Of a DNA stretch of 30,101 nucleotides, positions 1,071 to 27,013 are shown in pieces (the stretch's first letter is position 1; every line of letters begins with the position of its first letter). The translations under genes were made by a program, and so were the position numbers. The stretch spans positions 1 to 30,101 of the IMG/VR virus record IMGVR_UViG_3300025872_000215. The stretch is one strand, 5' to 3'. Source of the DNA: a virus. The notes under the pieces are model-generated. The model saw only the letters and a program-made list of their open reading frames with translations, was not told where the DNA came from and did no database searches.

Positions 1071-1672
1071 AACGTGCCGTCCTGGCCGGTGACCGCCTTC
1101 AGCGAGTCCAGGTAGAATGCAGCCTGGACATGATAGCGGAAGCTCATCACAGATCGCAGGAATGCCGCAGGACTTGCGTTGTCCGTGGTCTTGTAGTCCA
1201 CGATAACACCATCCTTCCTGATTGCGTCCATCCTGGCCCGGCACTGCACATCTTGAACCTGGTCAATCCAATATAACGATGCTTCAACATACTCGATATT
1301 CTGGACTGCGTTTCGGCAGGCTTTGTCAGCATAAAAAGCATCCTTCATGCCCTCTAGCTGCTGCGCCTCGTCCAGCGTGATGATGGTTCGTCCTGCTGCT
1401 TCACGCATCGCCTGGGCATATGTTTCTTTGCCTTCCTTCGTCCTGCGGTCACAGGGAGGAAGGACAAAGACCTCATCATCGAACTTGTCAGGCTCCAAGA
1501 TGACTGTATGCGCAAGCGTTCCCCAGCGCATCGCTGGTGTCTGCTCCTCTGGGTTGTTCTTCCTGTGAAGGTAGAGAGAGGGAGCGTGCCGAATTAGATC
1601 AAGGCCATGTTTGGAAATGCCAGCACTGCTGTGATAGGCCGCAGCCTCCATCTGTGGGATAAGCTCATTCAT
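1055..1672 (-). CDS. Phage PD-(D/E)XK exonuclease (RecE/DUF3799-like), C-terminus lost
   Basis: The first 206 residues match the PD-(D/E)XK exonucleases that phages pair with an annealing protein or recombinase. Visible features are the helical entry with MRWGTLAHTVILEP (about residues 48-61), the catalytic core RARMDAIRKDGVIVDYKTT with D149 and D159-Y-K161, and the downstream YHVQAAFY helix with Q183. The catalytic centre is therefore present. After LLVAQ (residue 206) the frame runs into antisense kinase sequence, so the last domain is missing from this window. The ATG at 1672 overlaps the stop of the upstream ATPase gene by four bases (ATGA), giving translational coupling. With that ATPase it probably processes double-strand ends for phage recombination or replication. 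Confidence 0.8.
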
Positions 1673-3942: not shown

Positions 3943-6900
3943 TTATTTGGTTGCCAGCTTGATCGCTGATTGTTCACTTTCTCTTACTCCAAGCAGAGCA
4001 CCGGCCATGTTGTAGACACGATACTTGCCCGAAGCAGACTTAATGATGCGGTTTCCCTTGGAGTCAACAAGGATATTCGGTGATGCAGGATCAGGCTGAA
4101 AGCGTGTTTGATCTTGATTTAGCCATTTAACAAAAAACGCTCCATTTCCAGACCCAATTTGAACGCCATCAGAATTTGGATATATCTGTTTCAAAACAAT
4201 AGCAATATCACTGCCATATTTTTGCTCAAATTCGCTCGCTCTCTTTAATCCCAAAACATCATACTTCAAAAAGTTAAGAAACGATTCAAAAGAAGACATT
4301 GAATCAAAAAACAAAGGTGCAGATGGAACTGCATCTGTTGATGCAATAGACCTTACAATACCATATTCCTTTGCCTGTTTTTTGCTTGTTGTTGTATAAA
4401 GACCCTTCCCTAGAAGAAATGCATTTGTTCCGCTTTTTTCAGTTTCACCACGGAAAACAACAGATGGTATTTTTCCAAAAAGCCCAACTGATGGAGATCG
4501 TGCTATTTTCTTAGCAGCCTCAATTTCAGAAGCAGTCAATTTATCAGGCTGAAAGCGCTTCTCTTCCTTGGCAGATTTCTTGATGAAATCAGCCTGGCCT
4601 TTCATCATCGCAGATTGTTCTGTTGAAGTCGTGCCAATCAATTCACCCTTGTCATCGTAGACCCTGAAGAGCTTGCTGCCTGTTTTCTTCAGGATGCGGT
4701 AACCGTCAGGATTAGTCAGCGTTTCTCCTGCCGGAAGCGTCTCCTTGGTGAAGGCATCAGGCTGGAAGTTCCGCATCGCTCGCTCATAGGTCGTAGCCTC
4801 TTCGAAGGCGAAGGCATGACCACTGTTGACCAGTTTGGCGAAGCGTTCAGCACGATAGCTTTTGATGGTGTCCTGTGACTTGTTAATGATGGATTCAGGA
4901 GCATTGACCAGGCTTTCACCGTTGCGCAGGCGGAAGCCAAGAGTCTCGTAAAAGAGGTTACGCTTCTTTGCCCCTTTCTCGCCACCACCCAGGAGAGTCG
5001 CGGAATCAATCGGGTTGATTTGCGTGATGTTCTCCATGTAACGGCCCAAGTCCTTCAGGGCATCAGCAGGATTGCTGTAAAGCTGCTTAAACTGCGGCTT
5101 TGCCAGCGAGGTCACAAGGCGGTCACGCACCTTTGTCATGTCAACGGCACGGATCAGAACGCCATCCTTGCTGTTCATCTCGACCGAGTAAGGAAGAATC
5201 TCGTTCTGGCTTGCAGACTTCACACCTGCCACCATCTTCCCCTTGCCTTTGCCACGGGTATAAACGCCGTAATAACGGGTGTCGAACGTGGATTTATTCG
5301 GGTTTTGCAGTGACATCAGGACATCGCGCAACACAGCCTTTGCAGACTGGTCAAGCGTTCCGCTATCCAGAATGGCATTTGCAGCAGTCGGGCTGATTTG
5401 CCCCTTGGCGGTCATCACCGTTTTCCCGGTCTTGTCTCGGTTAAATTCGATGCCTTTACGCTCATTCTCCGGCAATGCTGCAAGCCTTTGCGTCATGTCC
5501 TGCCATCGAGCCATGGCTTCAGCATTAATCTGCTGTTCGCTCTTTGGCGTGCCATCATCGTTTAGGATGCCCCTGGCGCCACCATAAGACTTGGCCCAGA
5601 TGACACGATCAGCAGGCTTTGCTGGGATCAGATCAGGCTTCGCCTGAGCCTCAGTTGCTCGCTTCTTCTTGTTCTCAAAAGCACGCTTGACGATTGCATC
5701 AAGCTCAGGAACTCGAATTGGCTTACCTTTGGTATCTCTGAACGTCCTGCTAGGAGCATCAAAGCCAAGTTCCATGCCTTTCTCAAAGAGAACTGTGCGG
5801 AATTTGTCAAGAATGCTGTCCTCAAGGGCATTCAGCGCCTTACGGTAAACAAGCGGCAAACGGTCAGGATTAAAGCGACCTGGGCGAATACGGTTAAACA
5901 GGTTGCCCGTGTAAGATGCTGCCATCTCATCCGCAATCATTGACCTAGCGTTTTGCAGGGCATTAGGGTCAGTGCTGTTCTTCAGCGTGTTGGCGTAGCC
6001 TTCAAAGGCATTAGCGCCATCTGTGCCTTTCCCGTAAGAGTCGCGGATTTGTTCTGCCACTCTTGCAAGTTCAACGTCGTTAAACAGGCCAGGGCGAACG
6101 ATTTCACCAGTGACAGGATCAGCCAGGCCAAAGATAGCGGATTCAATCTCAGGCCGGAAGGCTCGATTGATGACAGATGAGAACAGAACATGAGACGTTT
6201 CATGCGCTGCCGTATCTCCTTTAATCTTGGTCGGGTTCAGGACAACTTCGTTGGTGTCCACGTTCAGCCAGCCCGGATTCTGCCACTGCTTGATTTCATC
6301 GGGTGTTGCCACCCTGATCTTTGCCCCGTTAGCCTCTGCCACCTTTAGAGCGTCAATCTGTGATGCCGCCTTTTCTGGTCCAACCTGTTGAACAAGCCTG
6401 TTCAGCGTGTTTCCCCATGCAGCCTGCTCAACGTCTGGACGCTCACCTAGGAAGGTATTGAGGTCGCCAATGGCTTTCTGTTGTGTCCTGCTTGTTGAGT
6501 ATCCAAGAACTTCCTTGCCAAGATCGAAACCGCTTCGCAGTGATCCCGACATGCCGCCGATTGCAGCACCAGCGCCGGCCCCAGCAGCGGCACCTTCGAT
6601 GTTGCGTTCGGCCAGATATCCAAGACCGGCACCAACAGCAGCGCCAGCACCAGCTTCTTTCAGAGCTTGAGCAGACACCCTTCCTGCGGCGGAAATGGCA
6701 GGTTGAATCTGAGCTAGGCCAGCGGCTAGCTTTTGCGCAGCCGGTGAGATAGTGGCGTCTTGTGCGGCTCGTTCCAACAGGCCAACCCTGGACGCTTCCT
6801 GACGGGCAGCACGGGCAGCAGCACCAGCTACTTCAGCGGCTTTTTCTGCCGTTGTAGCACCACCAAGCACGCCAGCAGTTAGCCCGGCATCAGACATTAG

Positions 6901-7854
6901 CGCTGTTGCAACTGCTCCGCCCTGCATGGCGGCACCAGTCCCAGGAGCTACTGTTTCCGCAACATTCTTGACACCCTGAACAACCTTTCCAGGAAGCGAA
7001 GCAATAGTTTCAACACCTTTTGCGGCCTTCTCAATACCTCGCAGAGCAGTCTGTGCTGCTGCGCCTTTTGTAGTGCTTTTAATGCCAGTTGCAGCGGCAG
7101 TCTTGAACAGGCTTTGGCCTGCGAATTTGGCAAGGGCAGAGCTTCCAAGGCTCGCCAGCATTGTCGGGTCAATATACTGAGCACCTCTGGCAATGTCCTC
7201 GATTGGAGCACCGCGAAGAGTGGATTCAATGGCATAAATCCTATTAACGGCATCAGCATCGCGCTGCTTTTCATTATCAATCAGCGCATTGTAATCTGCT
7301 TCCGTATTTGGCGCTTGTTTGCGTCCAAAGGAGAACGGGAAAGTCTCGTCAGCGATAGTTTCCGCTGGCTGATCTTTGGTAGACTTTAGAAACTCTTCCT
7401 TGCTCGGAATCTTCTGAGCGGGTTCAAGCACTTTGCTGGCAATGTCAGCAAGTCCAACCGTTCCAGCAACGATGCCTTCCCCAGCAGATTGAGCAGCAGG
7501 ACCAAACTGACCGGCAAGAGCAGCTTCACCGGTCGCAGCAAGAGAATTGCCAACCTCACTCACGATGTTGCCAAATACATCACCAGCAATGCCAAGAGCA
7601 TCACCAAGGCTTGTTTTCTTGTTGGCAAGATGCTGACGATACAGGACATAATCATCCCTGGACATATCCAGGAATGGATTCACCAGGTTCCCGCCTTCGA
7701 TGGAAGTATTCTTGGCCTGCTCAACCTCGTATGCAACATCCTCACCAGAACGAGGATATTCATTTTCGATGGCAGACTGAATCTCCTGCTCCGTCATGGA
7801 GTCGGGAAATTCAAGCTCGACATTTCGTGACGGAAGAGAAACTGTGATTGGCAT
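3943..7854 (-). CDS. Giant multidomain virion/polyvalent-type protein with zincin motif and ART-like C-terminus
   Basis: From the ATG at 7854 (MPITVSLPSRN) the protein has 1303 residues. The N-terminus carries a short acidic module (ELEFPDSMTEQEIQSAI) common at the front of large phage proteins. Residues about 245-435 are Ala/Gly-rich and amphipathic, as in ejected internal virion proteins. AAHETSHVLF (HExxH, residues 551-555) is a zinc-peptidase-like motif. Near the C-terminus VVFRGE (about 1132-1137), LLGKGLYTTTSKKQAKEYG (about 1147-1165) and PNSDGVQI (about 1226-1233) resemble an ADP-ribosyltransferase fold. Two related modules of about 37 residues flank this domain, and RF(N/Q)PD-type linkers recur four times. 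Its size and place at the end of the ejection-protein genes recall T7 gp16. I infer a virion-delivered effector; the catalytic Glu of the ART-like domain is not clear. Confidence 0.75.
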   Translation of the reverse strand: MPITVSLPSRNVELEFPDSMTEQEIQSAIENEYPRSGEDVAYEVEQAKNTSIEGGNLVNPFLDMSRDDYVLYRQHLANKKTSLGDALGIAGDVFGNIVSEVGNSLAATGEAALAGQFGPAAQSAGEGIVAGTVGLADIASKVLEPAQKIPSKEEFLKSTKDQPAETIADETFPFSFGRKQAPNTEADYNALIDNEKQRDADAVNRIYAIESTLRGAPIEDIARGAQYIDPTMLASLGSSALAKFAGQSLFKTAAATGIKSTTKGAAAQTALRGIEKAAKGVETIASLPGKVVQGVKNVAETVAPGTGAAMQGGAVATALMSDAGLTAGVLGGATTAEKAAEVAGAAARAARQEASRVGLLERAAQDATISPAAQKLAAGLAQIQPAISAAGRVSAQALKEAGAGAAVGAGLGYLAERNIEGAAAGAGAGAAIGGMSGSLRSGFDLGKEVLGYSTSRTQQKAIGDLNTFLGERPDVEQAAWGNTLNRLVQQVGPEKAASQIDALKVAEANGAKIRVATPDEIKQWQNPGWLNVDTNEVVLNPTKIKGDTAAHETSHVLFSSVINRAFRPEIESAIFGLADPVTGEIVRPGLFNDVELARVAEQIRDSYGKGTDGANAFEGYANTLKNSTDPNALQNARSMIADEMAASYTGNLFNRIRPGRFNPDRLPLVYRKALNALEDSILDKFRTVLFEKGMELGFDAPSRTFRDTKGKPIRVPELDAIVKRAFENKKKRATEAQAKPDLIPAKPADRVIWAKSYGGARGILNDDGTPKSEQQINAEAMARWQDMTQRLAALPENERKGIEFNRDKTGKTVMTAKGQISPTAANAILDSGTLDQSAKAVLRDVLMSLQNPNKSTFDTRYYGVYTRGKGKGKMVAGVKSASQNEILPYSVEMNSKDGVLIRAVDMTKVRDRLVTSLAKPQFKQLYSNPADALKDLGRYMENITQINPIDSATLLGGGEKGAKKRNLFYETLGFRLRNGESLVNAPESIINKSQDTIKSYRAERFAKLVNSGHAFAFEEATTYERAMRNFQPDAFTKETLPAGETLTNPDGYRILKKTGSKLFRVYDDKGELIGTTSTEQSAMMKGQADFIKKSAKEEKRFQPDKLTASEIEAAKKIARSPSVGLFGKIPSVVFRGETEKSGTNAFLLGKGLYTTTSKKQAKEYGIVRSIASTDAVPSAPLFFDSMSSFESFLNFLKYDVLGLKRASEFEQKYGSDIAIVLKQIYPNSDGVQIGSGNGAFFVKWLNQDQTRFQPDPASPNILVDSKGNRIIKSASGKYRVYNMAGALLGVRESEQSAIKLATK
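4090..4104. repeat. 15-base direct repeat, copy 1 (encodes RFQPD linker)
   Basis: The sequence atcaggctgaaagcg is identical to the copy at 4543-4557. On the minus strand both read CGC TTT CAG CCT GAT (R-F-Q-P-D) in the frame of the 1303-residue protein. The pair brackets the AT-rich ART-like domain. Identical codons could result from domain shuffling through the repeat. Confidence 0.9.
4543..4557. repeat. 15-base direct repeat, copy 2 (encodes RFQPD linker)
   Basis: Second identical copy of atcaggctgaaagcg. It marks the N-terminal border of the ART-like domain; the copy at 4090-4104 marks the C-terminal border. Two further versions of the linker (NFQPD at 4756-4770 and GRFNPD at 5863-5880) use diverged codons. 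Confidence 0.9.
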
Positions 7855-25229: not shown

Positions 25230-25517
25230 TTAACTGTTTTTCCACTTAGTAGCGGCCCAGTAAGCGGCTGACATCTTGCCTTTTTTAATGTTCTTCTCAT
25301 GTCGAGCAAAAAACGATTCACGGCGGTTCTTGTCAGCTTCGCTTTCTCCTTTTCTAGGAGGCGATCCAGACACTCCCTGCTGGCCAAATCGGATCGTTTT
25401 CACCTCGTTGCCTTGCTTGGCGACCACGACATGACTCTTCGTAGGGTGGCTAGGAGTGCGTTTTGGCTTGTTGTAGCCTTCCACTCCGACTCTGGCTAGT
25501 CTGGGGTCTTTCTTCAT
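25230..25517 (-). CDS. Small basic phage protein next to terminase
   Basis: The 95-residue, Lys/Arg-rich protein contains PSHPTKSHVVVAKQGNEVKTIRFGQQGV and RRESFFARHEKNIKKGKMSAAYWA. I recognise this as a widespread short phage protein of unknown function that often lies beside the terminase (KSHVVVAKxGxKxKxIRFGQQGV). It is beta-rich at the front with a basic helical end. The start overlaps the stop of the 135-residue gene (ATGA) and the stop is nine bases before terL. It could bind DNA and assist packaging. Confidence 0.75.
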   Translation of the reverse strand: MKKDPRLARVGVEGYNKPKRTPSHPTKSHVVVAKQGNEVKTIRFGQQGVSGSPPRKGESEADKNRRESFFARHEKNIKKGKMSAAYWAATKWKNS

Positions 25518-25921
25518 TTTGGAAGCATTGCTTTCAGTTGTTTGACTGCCTTCATTTGCTCTGGTGATGGTGTTCCCGCAGAAGGGTCGCCAGACATAAT
25601 TCGTGAAATGATGGTATGCTGTGCTGCCAGTTTATTTTCTGGCTTGGCATAATCAGCTTTCAGCCCCTGAAAGAACTTCATTTGTTCATCGGTTAGATCG
25701 AACTCAGGCTTAAAGTTTTTCTGCTTCATAAAGAGACGAAGTGCCTCGTTTTGAGCAACTGCCATTTTTTCTTGCTCTGATAGGCCAGAGGCAGGATTTA
25801 GAATGATTCGGTTGTCCTCTGTCGCCATTCCAGCAACGTGCGGATTTTTTGCGAAGTATTGCAACTCTCCTGCGTAAGGTGAACGCAGTTCAAAACCATG
25901 AATTTTTGTTGGAATAGGCAT
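25514..25921 (-). CDS. Hypothetical protein, first gene of the late operon
   Basis: The 135-residue protein begins MPIPTKIHGFELRSPYAGEL and has IILNPASGLSEQEKMAVAQNEA, a short motif seen in unnamed phage proteins. The rest is helical with ISRIMSGDPSAGTPSPEQMKAVKQLKAMLP at the end. I cannot assign a family. It is the first gene after the 475-base non-coding block, so a minus-strand late promoter should lie near 25930-26000. The start has no obvious Shine-Dalgarno sequence. A small-terminase role is possible by position only. Confidence 0.6.
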   Translation of the reverse strand: MPIPTKIHGFELRSPYAGELQYFAKNPHVAGMATEDNRIILNPASGLSEQEKMAVAQNEALRLFMKQKNFKPEFDLTDEQMKFFQGLKADYAKPENKLAAQHTIISRIMSGDPSAGTPSPEQMKAVKQLKAMLPK

Positions 25922-25959
25922 ATGGCTGAACTATGACCTGAGATTTTTCAAAGCAAGAC

Positions 25960-25986
25960 TTGATTGACAAATTCAAGGTATATAGT
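25960..25986 (+). promoter_or_regulatory. Candidate plus-strand promoter for the structured RNA
   Basis: TTGATT (25960-25965) and TATAGT (25981-25986) are separated by 15 bases. A better -35 (TTGACA, 25964-25969) is only 11 bases from the -10 and so cannot pair with it. The surroundings are clearly AT-rich compared with the RNA that follows. A start near 25993 would place transcription just before the first stem. The short spacing keeps confidence low. Confidence 0.35.
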
Positions 25987-25989
25987 AAG

Positions 25990-26006
25990 GCAAACAATAG
26001 GTTTGC
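25990..26006. repeat. Inverted repeat at the 5' end of the RNA region (operator or alternative stem)
   Basis: GCAAAC (25990-25995) and GTTTGC (26001-26006) are perfectly inverted around five bases. The right arm can instead pair with CGCAAAC at 26039-26045, so the two structures exclude each other. As DNA the palindrome overlaps the expected start site and could be a repressor site serving both strands. As RNA it could be a switch. Confidence 0.6.
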
Positions 26007-26314
26007 GTTCTAGCAGGGCGTGATCCGTCCCACTGTGGCGCAAACCGCACTGAGGCCGACGTTCCTGCTAGACGTCGGTCTCTTTGTTTTCGGGCAATCC
26101 TCGCCTGACAGAAGATTGTAGTGTCCCTGAGTGGGCAACGCGGGCAATCGGAGGATTTCGGCGCACGGTGGACAGCAAATCAGCCGTGCAGAAGGCGCAT
26201 CTGCAAAGATGGGTTGCGCTCGTTGCCGTCTGACCTGTGTGCTACTGAGCCAGCCGAGCAGGAAGGCAGCGAGAACATGTGACGAGACTCCCGATCCTTA
26301 TACGGAGGTAGAGC

Positions 26315-26357
26315 TTAGAGCATGGCAGTTCCTAATAATGGGATTGCTATGCTCTAA
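26315..26357 (+). promoter_or_regulatory. 18-bp hairpin between structured RNA and nuclease gene
   Basis: TTAGAGCATGGCAGTTCC pairs fully with the sequence at 26340-26357 around the seven-base loop TAATAAT, with three G-U pairs. No U-run follows, so it is not a standard intrinsic terminator. A second copy of CTCTAA just before the nuclease ATG (26390-26395) could pair with TTAGAG (26315-26320) instead. The element could be an RNase III site, a boundary or a translational switch. Confidence 0.6.
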
Positions 26358-26396
26358 AACAGCCCTCACCTGACCGGAGATGAGCTTCACTCTAAA

Positions 26397-26786
26397 ATGA
26401 TCCAAATACCTCAAAACAAATCAGAGTTTGAACTTCAAGCTGAACTCTTCTCAGCCTTAAAAACGGCTGGCTACCTCGTCAGAGGAGAGGTTTCAGCTAG
26501 ATTGAATGGTAAAAAGAGCATTTTTGACCTTGTGATCTTCAAGGAAGATAAAGCTGTAGTCATTATTGAGGTCAAAGACTCTCCTCATCGCGCAGTTGTC
26601 TATGGGAAAAAGACAAAGCAATCAATGCAGTATAAGGCCTATAATCTGCCCGTAATTTATCACACGACAATCCACTCAGTTCAGCAGACTCTTGCTAGAA
26701 TAGAGCGGGTCTTGGCAGAGAGAGAGGATTTAATCCTTCTTCAGCAGATAGTAAAACATGAAGCTGAAGCCGATAAAATGGATTAG
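26397..26786 (+). CDS. Small PD-(D/E)XK-type nuclease
   Basis: This is the only confident plus-strand phage gene in the window (129 residues). The nuclease core is SIFDLVIF (D44) then AVVIIEVKDS (E58-V-K60), preceded by a helix with acidic residues (SEFELQAELFSALK) and RGEV, and followed by QSMQYKAYNLPVIY. This is the minimal PD-(D/E)XK fold seen in small phage nucleases, restriction-like domains and some homing enzymes. The gene is AT-rich (22 of 60 G+C in 26401-26460, counted by hand) against GC-rich genes to its right, suggesting separate acquisition. GGAGA (26376-26380) is a distant ribosome-binding site candidate. It converges with the minus-strand operon, leaving only eight bases. The target is unknown. 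Confidence 0.75.
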   Translation: MIQIPQNKSEFELQAELFSALKTAGYLVRGEVSARLNGKKSIFDLVIFKEDKAVVIIEVKDSPHRAVVYGKKTKQSMQYKAYNLPVIYHTTIHSVQQTLARIERVLAEREDLILLQQIVKHEAEADKMD

Positions 26787-26794
26787 AAAGTCAA

Positions 26795-27013
26795 TCATAG
26801 GTTTTTGGTCAGTTCTTCCTTGGCAATCATTACTTCCTCGCCGGTTTCAACGACTTTGACGCACCATTCGCCATTCCAGCCATCCTGGTCTGCACCAGGG
26901 TAAAGAGGCTGGACGATGCTGTTAGCCTTCACGACGACCTGTTTCAGCCCGTCCATGGTGCTCACCCAGGTGCTGTTCCGCAGTTTCACTGCTCCTGGGA
27001 GTCCGTAGGGCAT
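26795..27013 (-). CDS. Small beta-rich hypothetical protein
   Basis: The 72-residue protein has short beta segments (LKQVVVKANSIVQPLY; GEWCVKVVETGEEVMIAKEEL) like a small SH3/KOW-type barrel. It is unrecognised. The ATG at 27013 overlaps the end of the 75-residue gene by 28 bases; a later Met at 26956 is possible. It is the last gene of the right-hand minus-strand operon and ends eight bases from the converging nuclease gene. Confidence 0.55.
   Translation of the reverse strand: MPYGLPGAVKLRNSTWVSTMDGLKQVVVKANSIVQPLYPGADQDGWNGEWCVKVVETGEEVMIAKEELTKNL

Follow-up and report, generated by a model that had tools for sequence, protein, structure and literature searches.

Layout of the locus

The window, meaning the whole stretch of DNA that was analysed, is a virus record of 30,101 bases. 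The ORF list and family matches assign its terminase, portal, exonuclease, Sak4-like and methylase genes to the minus strand, while an RNA and an ORF of 129 aa (nt 26,397–26,786) lie on the plus strand, in agreement with an earlier, sequence-only reading that had described a plus-strand island in a minus-strand genome. The island is bounded by a terS-like gene and its neighbour (nt 25,230–25,921) on one side and by a gene of 72 aa (nt 26,795–27,013) on the other. A 135-aa gene (nt 25,514–25,921, minus strand) without a family match is 99% identical in L008 only and is not present in the remaining related loci that were searched, which suggests that it was recently exchanged beside the RNA.

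The island opens with a sigma-70-like promoter sequence (nt 25,960–25,986, plus strand), which consists of TTGATT (nt 25,960–25,965), a spacer of 15 nt and TATAGT (nt 25,981–25,986), and is missing from the list of a generic scanner because of the length of that spacer. The prediction draws on the sequence itself (score 9/12 in the window) and on its conserved position, as nearly all relatives have a TTG-type -35/-10 pair directly 5' of the RNA, with a mean best score of 8.1 compared with 5.1 for shuffled sequences; the candidate promoter proposed earlier is thereby strengthened. It is oriented against the late genes, and behind it lies an RNA-like element of about 390 nt with covarying structure. 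The fold of nt 25,990–26,400 has a predicted energy of -170 kcal/mol (z = -4.4), and none of 100 shuffled sequences folded as well.

Novelty was gauged against Rfam 15 and the open-access literature. Rfam searches at gathering and relaxed thresholds returned nothing real, the GOLLD, ROOL, C4, RNAI and pRNA models included, and the scan of the window and nine related loci gave nothing at the gathering threshold. A sub-threshold match to STnc70 (27.7 bits, cutoff 40) spanning the promoter was attributed to chance.

Architecture of the 5' domain

The first 97 nt or so of the RNA form a 5' domain (nt 25,993–26,089, plus strand) comprising helix P1, a pseudoknot (pk), hairpins P2 and P3, and a U-tract. 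Covariance model R1 recognises it with 88.9 bits (E 9e-22), a score that is partly self-matching because the window's own sequence is one of the 20 from which the model was built; the R1 search returned 33 loci at E below 1e-8. P1 (nt 26,000–26,046) joins GGTTTGC (nt 26,000–26,006) to GCAAACC (nt 26,040–26,046), with double changes in four of its seven pairs. Inside it lies P2 (nt 26,016–26,030), formed by nt 26,016–26,020 and 26,026–26,030, and 3' of it follows P3 with its U-tract (nt 26,052–26,090, TTTGTTTT), an intrinsic-terminator-like hairpin (nt 26,052–26,082) that escaped the sequence-only reading. Across 27 distinct sequences the proportion of cells paired is 96% for P1, 97% for P3 and 74% for P2; double changes occur in 16 of the 23 pairs of the domain, and the covariation score is 0.436 compared with 0.07–0.11 for slid partners. 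P3 scores as a terminator, and a U-rich tail follows it in 29 of the 29 5' domains examined. One feature of an attenuator, the intrinsic terminator in the leader, is therefore present at the sequence level as P3 and its U-tract.

The most unusual element of the domain is a strand of 7–10 nt within P1 that is hypervariable and pairs with the loop of P3. In the window the strand (pk5, nt 26,009–26,017, TCTAGCAGG) and its partner in the loop (pk3, nt 26,064–26,072, CCTGCTAGA) show a perfect complementarity of 9 nt, which had also gone unnoticed. The 5' arm of P2 is in addition complementary to the top of the 5' arm of P3, by which the pseudoknot helix reaches 11–13 bp in many sequences. This alternative pairing (columns 28–30/70–72) has 85% of cells paired and 15 double-change cells, over three columns only. 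Since it cannot form together with P2 and the top of P3, the domain may be a two-state element. Folding energies mostly favour the three-hairpin fold over the antiterminator-type alternative, and in the window the former is predicted to be better by about 11 kcal/mol, with the pseudoknot uncounted. For a different, one-hairpin fold, the outer helix, in which the 5' leader would pair with the 3' arm of P3, was judged unsupported, as variation in the P3 column is met by an invariant P1 column.

Exchangeable 3' domains

In the window the 5' domain is followed by a multi-helix structured RNA designated form A (nt 26,091–26,366, plus strand), in which 27 of 57 pairs are compensatory and 98% of cells are paired, compared with 31–43% for slid partners. 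Its helices include nt 26,099–26,102/26,151–26,154, 26,114–26,119/26,144–26,149, 26,163–26,172/26,180–26,189, 26,194–26,202/26,207–26,215 and 26,224–26,227/26,265–26,268. Near its 3' end lies the hairpin reported from the sequence alone as 18 bp long (nt 26,315–26,357, plus strand), the arms of which (nt 26,315–26,332 and 26,340–26,357) are 18 nt each and 83% complementary. Cells with G-U exceed those with A-C by 111:22, which indicates that the plus strand is the RNA. A coding frame at nt 26,131–26,373 was dismissed, as it has no family match and relatives differ by indels of 1–2 nt.

A second type of 3' domain, form B, is represented by fewer sequences, with double changes in five of 52 pairs and 96 G-U compared with three A-C cells. 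Its 3' end (e.g. in L009 and L030) carries a GGGGGGAGGGGGGG run and then TCTTGGCAGAGAGAGAGG, and is nearly invariant within the form; the run looks similar to R-loop-forming G runs, and a partial relic of this end is found in the window at nt 26,705–26,768. In the G020–G023 records, form A is set off from the 5' domain by extra structured segments. L157 has a long, structured stretch inserted 3' of the 5' domain (nt 6,947–7,038, minus strand) and ahead of form A, which includes the T-arm-like hairpin ACTGGTTCAAGTCCAGT; the idea of a tRNA or tmRNA, which arose from this stretch, was dropped, as ARAGORN and Rfam see neither. The mobile 3' domains may be undescribed effector RNAs. Covarying base pairs are thus found among relatives in the 5' domain, the pseudoknot and the 3' domain, and the structured non-coding RNA first suggested by the window's fold is well supported.

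Distribution among phages

A search anchored on the nuclease returned only close copies and two distant ones; as the nuclease was no useful anchor, the terminase was used instead. This gave 35 related loci, in most of which the same intergenic slot holds the RNA, and further lineages were added by pattern scans for form-specific and P1/P3 motifs. In total, the 5' domain was found in 43 viral contigs, the window included (27 with form A, 13 with form B and three with other 3' sequences), where duplicate loci of one contig are counted once and the contigs, partly fragments, are not independent events. The carriers, among them several unrelated freshwater phages, fall into at least five phage lineages: the terminase clade of the window, a clade with an HTVC010P-type portal, the G020–G023 records (43–60 kb), G025 and G026. 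A tyrosine integrase was not found in 11 records searched, some of which are fragments.

Outside these contigs, a P1/P3 pattern scan of a prokaryote genome collection gave 13 matches, all of which were due to chance as judged by nhmmer and by eye, although the scan required an exact P1 and could miss divergent copies. DNA searches of phage, plasmid and E. coli collections gave no match. A weak R1 match in L174 (E 7.5e-5) and a second match in L156 proved to be ordinary terminators.

The sequence 3' of the RNA also differs between carriers. Same-strand ORFs in this position encode 71 aa in L042/L065, 52 aa in L012 and an HTH protein in L155, and elsewhere there is no obvious gene. The L155 ORF (nt 6,176–6,433, plus strand) belongs to the G025 phage and specifies an HTH_3/XRE regulator, a possible cargo gene. 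Another conserved intergenic element also came up in the comparisons (CCGCTCTAAAACTCC..GACGCTGTTTTAGAC..AGCGAAAGCACGGCAAAAGGG); its CTAAAAC/GTTTTAG hairpin is superficially like a type II CRISPR repeat. The element occurs in L167 (nt 1,627–1,643, minus strand), L168 (nt 3,619, plus), L169 (nt 2,848, plus), L173 (nt 9,310, plus) and L141 (nt 946, minus). In L014/L169 it takes the place of the large RNA, and in L141 it lies downstream of that RNA.

The genomic positions bear on the question of whether the RNA could be a nucleic-acid machine, either a replication primer acting through an R-loop in the manner of ColE1 RNA II or a packaging RNA like the pRNA of phi29. In one lineage the RNA adjoins terS/terL, the R-loop-prone run lies at the end of form B, and incompatibility-type loop evolution is a feature of RNA I/II. 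However, the clade with the HTVC010P-type portal carries the RNA between scaffold/protease and capsid genes, the loci of the TerL clade at 64% identity lack it, and form A has no G run. Considered as evidence of an origin, the GC-skew extreme is not clearly above the shuffled range, and the RNAI and pRNA models are unmatched. A role of this kind is decidedly improbable.

The nuclease is a passenger

The ORF 3' of the RNA in the window (nt 26,397–26,786, plus strand) had been taken for a small PD-(D/E)XK nuclease, and both signature and fold prediction agree. The active site reads D44...E58-V-K60, with E16, D44, E58 and K60 invariant, and the predicted model (pLDDT 71) has an alpha-beta-beta-beta-alpha-beta core. 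Fold-match E-values are weak; Bax1 and other nucleases head the structural matches, and no match falls below E 0.001.

The nuclease accompanies the RNA in three of the 43 contigs only (the window, L003 and L019/L041). In L004, the RNA of the window (nt 25,922–26,391) is present at 99.5% identity and is followed by a different sequence without the nuclease, and two distant homologues of the nuclease, in L165 and L166 (29–30% identity), occur without the RNA. The proposal that RNA and nuclease travel together as one module is thereby refuted, and the gene is best described as accessory.

The sequence-only reading had likened the locus to type III toxin‒antitoxin systems and considered an RNA-regulated toxin or an RNA-guided or RNA-inhibited nuclease. 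The order of promoter, RNA, hairpin and protein stands in the window, while tandem repeats, a ToxN fold and constant linkage do not: no tandem repeat was detected at nt 25,900–26,900 and the only direct repeat is one of 9 nt, no family match to a ToxN/AbiQ-type endoribonuclease was found for the protein, the fold of which is PD-(D/E)XK, and PADLOC returned no match. With the sparse association and the homologues that lack the RNA, such a function is very remote.

The 3' end of the gene records an exchange. The last 25 or so residues of the nuclease are encoded by the relic of the form B 3' end (nt 26,705–26,768, plus strand; nhmmer E 5e-9, and BLAST matches to L030/L002), which marks a recombination junction within the gene. 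The simplest reading of these sequences is that form A and the nuclease replaced a form B RNA in the window. Antisense to the 3' end of the gene runs a small ORF of 22 codons (nt 26,730–26,798, minus strand, MIDFLIHFIGFSFMFYYLLKKD) that would specify a hydrophobic peptide of 22 residues; it reads nearly identically in the form B relatives L002/L030 and its coordinates overlap with the end of the neighbouring gene of 72 aa. Both relic and antisense ORF, which underlie the last 80 nt or so of the nuclease gene, had been overlooked.

That the nuclease might be a homing endonuclease which mobilises the RNA locus is suggested by a fold weakly similar to I-Ssp6803I and I-Bth0305I, among others, by the clean module exchange between phages and by the junction inside its 3' end. 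Exchange of the RNA without the nuclease is common, however (L004, L056), the distant homologues are found at other places that lack the RNA, in one case directly behind a DnaB-helicase-like gene, and the best structural matches are Bax1 and the like, so that this explanation is improbable.

A hypervariable, self-complementary pseudoknot

Pairing between the two pseudoknot strands is found in 146 of 147 cells (99.3%), with 82 double-change cells and a covariation score of 1.373 compared with at most 0.183 for slid partners. These counts derive from 21 distinct strand/loop combinations that were cut out by complementarity; as this selection is circular, the comparison of own with foreign partners provides the fair control. 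When the covariance model sets the regions, the longest stretch of Watson-Crick pairs averages 7.8 within molecules compared with 3.6 between different ones, a value of 7.8 being reached in none of 20,000 permutations. Among the sequences compared, the strand is hypervariable yet self-complementary.

Of ten pairs of loci with 3' domains 92–99% identical, nine differ in pk type, and the 5' domains of these pairs are 57–88% identical. Among the pk base pairs 64% have changed, compared with 18% for P1 and 26% for P3 (Fisher p 1e-7, helix base pairs not being independent), a rate that is based on few close pairs (8) and that recombination among types inflates. The types are shuffled between phage backbones and between 3' forms: TCTGATCA occurs in L128 (form A) and L141 (form B), and GTGATGG in L011 (form A) and L009 (form B). 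A third copy of the strand was not found in the genomes with long pk types (WIN, G009, G011, G012 and G015), short types being uninformative, which makes it unlikely that the strand has a fixed target within the genome of its own phage.

Covariation alone does not separate an intramolecular pseudoknot, an antiterminator and an intermolecular kissing interaction, as all three share the same base pairs. If the pairing were intermolecular, the P3 loop of one copy could kiss the P1-internal strand of the next, giving a homo-oligomer, and hypervariability would keep apart the particles of co-infecting phages. The complementarity of 7–10 bp between loop and strand, the large structured 3' domains, the presence in phages and the want of a target elsewhere in the genomes are all consistent with such self-assembly, which would explain the pairing as well as an attenuator does. 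Kissing loops also mediate the assembly of two kinds of phage RNA, GOLLD and ROOL (PMC12286853). The GOLLD and ROOL models are unmatched, however, tRNAs are not nearby, and the internal terminator-like U-tract would go unexplained, which makes self-assembly unlikely.

The terminator hairpin with its U-tail and hypervariable loop would also suit a separate, terminated small RNA of about 97 nt, the loop of which acts as a seed on a target in the host or a rival phage, in the manner of C4 or of Hfq-type RNAs. Type-specific antisense immunity has a precedent among phages in the C4 RNA of P1/P7 (PMC12197685). Such a seed would be masked by its own perfect partner, though, no third copy is present in the phage genome, and C4 models are unmatched. 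As no integrase was found in the 11 records, there is probably no lysogen to protect. This possibility is considered quite unlikely.

A possible type-specific attenuator

Taken together, the island is an exchangeable plus-strand RNA element that carries, as read from its sequences, a promoter-like sequence of its own, a hypervariable 5' domain and swappable 3' domains. From this anatomy we infer promoter activity, termination, control of read-through and feedback between copies. The explanation tentatively preferred, though it falls somewhat short of being probable, is that the island is accessory and self-contained, and that its 5' domain may serve as a type-specific, self-recognising attenuator controlling the 3' structured RNA and its cargo. 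Completion of P3 in the nascent RNA would lead to termination at about nt 26,090 and release of a short RNA, while the alternative, an extended helix between the P1 strand and the 5' arm of P3, would let transcription continue through the effector RNA of the 3' domain and into the cargo. The same-strand cargo genes behind the RNA, of which the nuclease is one, are present in some carriers and absent from others. Since two copies of the RNA could also pair with each other, short RNA that has accumulated could feed back on nascent RNA of its own type, so that output would respond only to copies of that type. A response limited in this way would give orthogonal types an advantage, as with the incompatibility RNAs of plasmids, and could explain the fast compensated change. 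A more far-reaching proposal, which we regard as doubtful, is that this RNA family is under diversifying selection for orthogonal self-recognition, and that phages without an integrase sense their own kind via matching strands and set the output of effector RNA and cargo accordingly.

Comparison with known systems

The island resembles ToxIN in the window's order of promoter, RNA, hairpin and small protein, and differs in that ToxN fold and tandem repeats are lacking and the protein is optional. With phi29 pRNA the RNA shares complementary variable loops, a phage origin and, in one lineage, adjoining terminase genes; its genome positions, accessory distribution and architecture are different, and Rfam provides no match. 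Like C4 of P1/P7 it is a phage RNA that would have sequence-type specificity through loop pairing, but its structure is different, it has no separate target copy (long pk types) and it occurs in lineages without an integrase. GOLLD and ROOL are likewise large, phage-borne, heavily structured non-coding RNAs with loop-mediated pairing, whereas the RNA described here has no covariance-model match to them, a shorter core, swappable 3' domains, hypervariable self-pairing and an internal terminator-like hairpin, and no tRNA neighbours were found.

Few structured RNAs of this size are known from phages, and neither Rfam 15 nor the open-access literature yielded one that combines a conserved scaffold with fast compensated pairing and swappable 3' domains. 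The 20-odd natural types provide ready matched and mismatched pairs for testing recognition. ColE1 RNA I/II and the pT181-type attenuators are plasmid copy-control and incompatibility RNAs, the loops of which are hypervariable with compensated change. The RNA of the island shares such loops with them, as well as the link between RNA pairing and a terminator or structured transcript, but carries both partners in one transcript, belongs to phages, needs no counter-transcribed antisense gene and has no Rfam match. Should its pairing serve as a code for recognition, phages would have in it an RNA counterpart of plasmid incompatibility.
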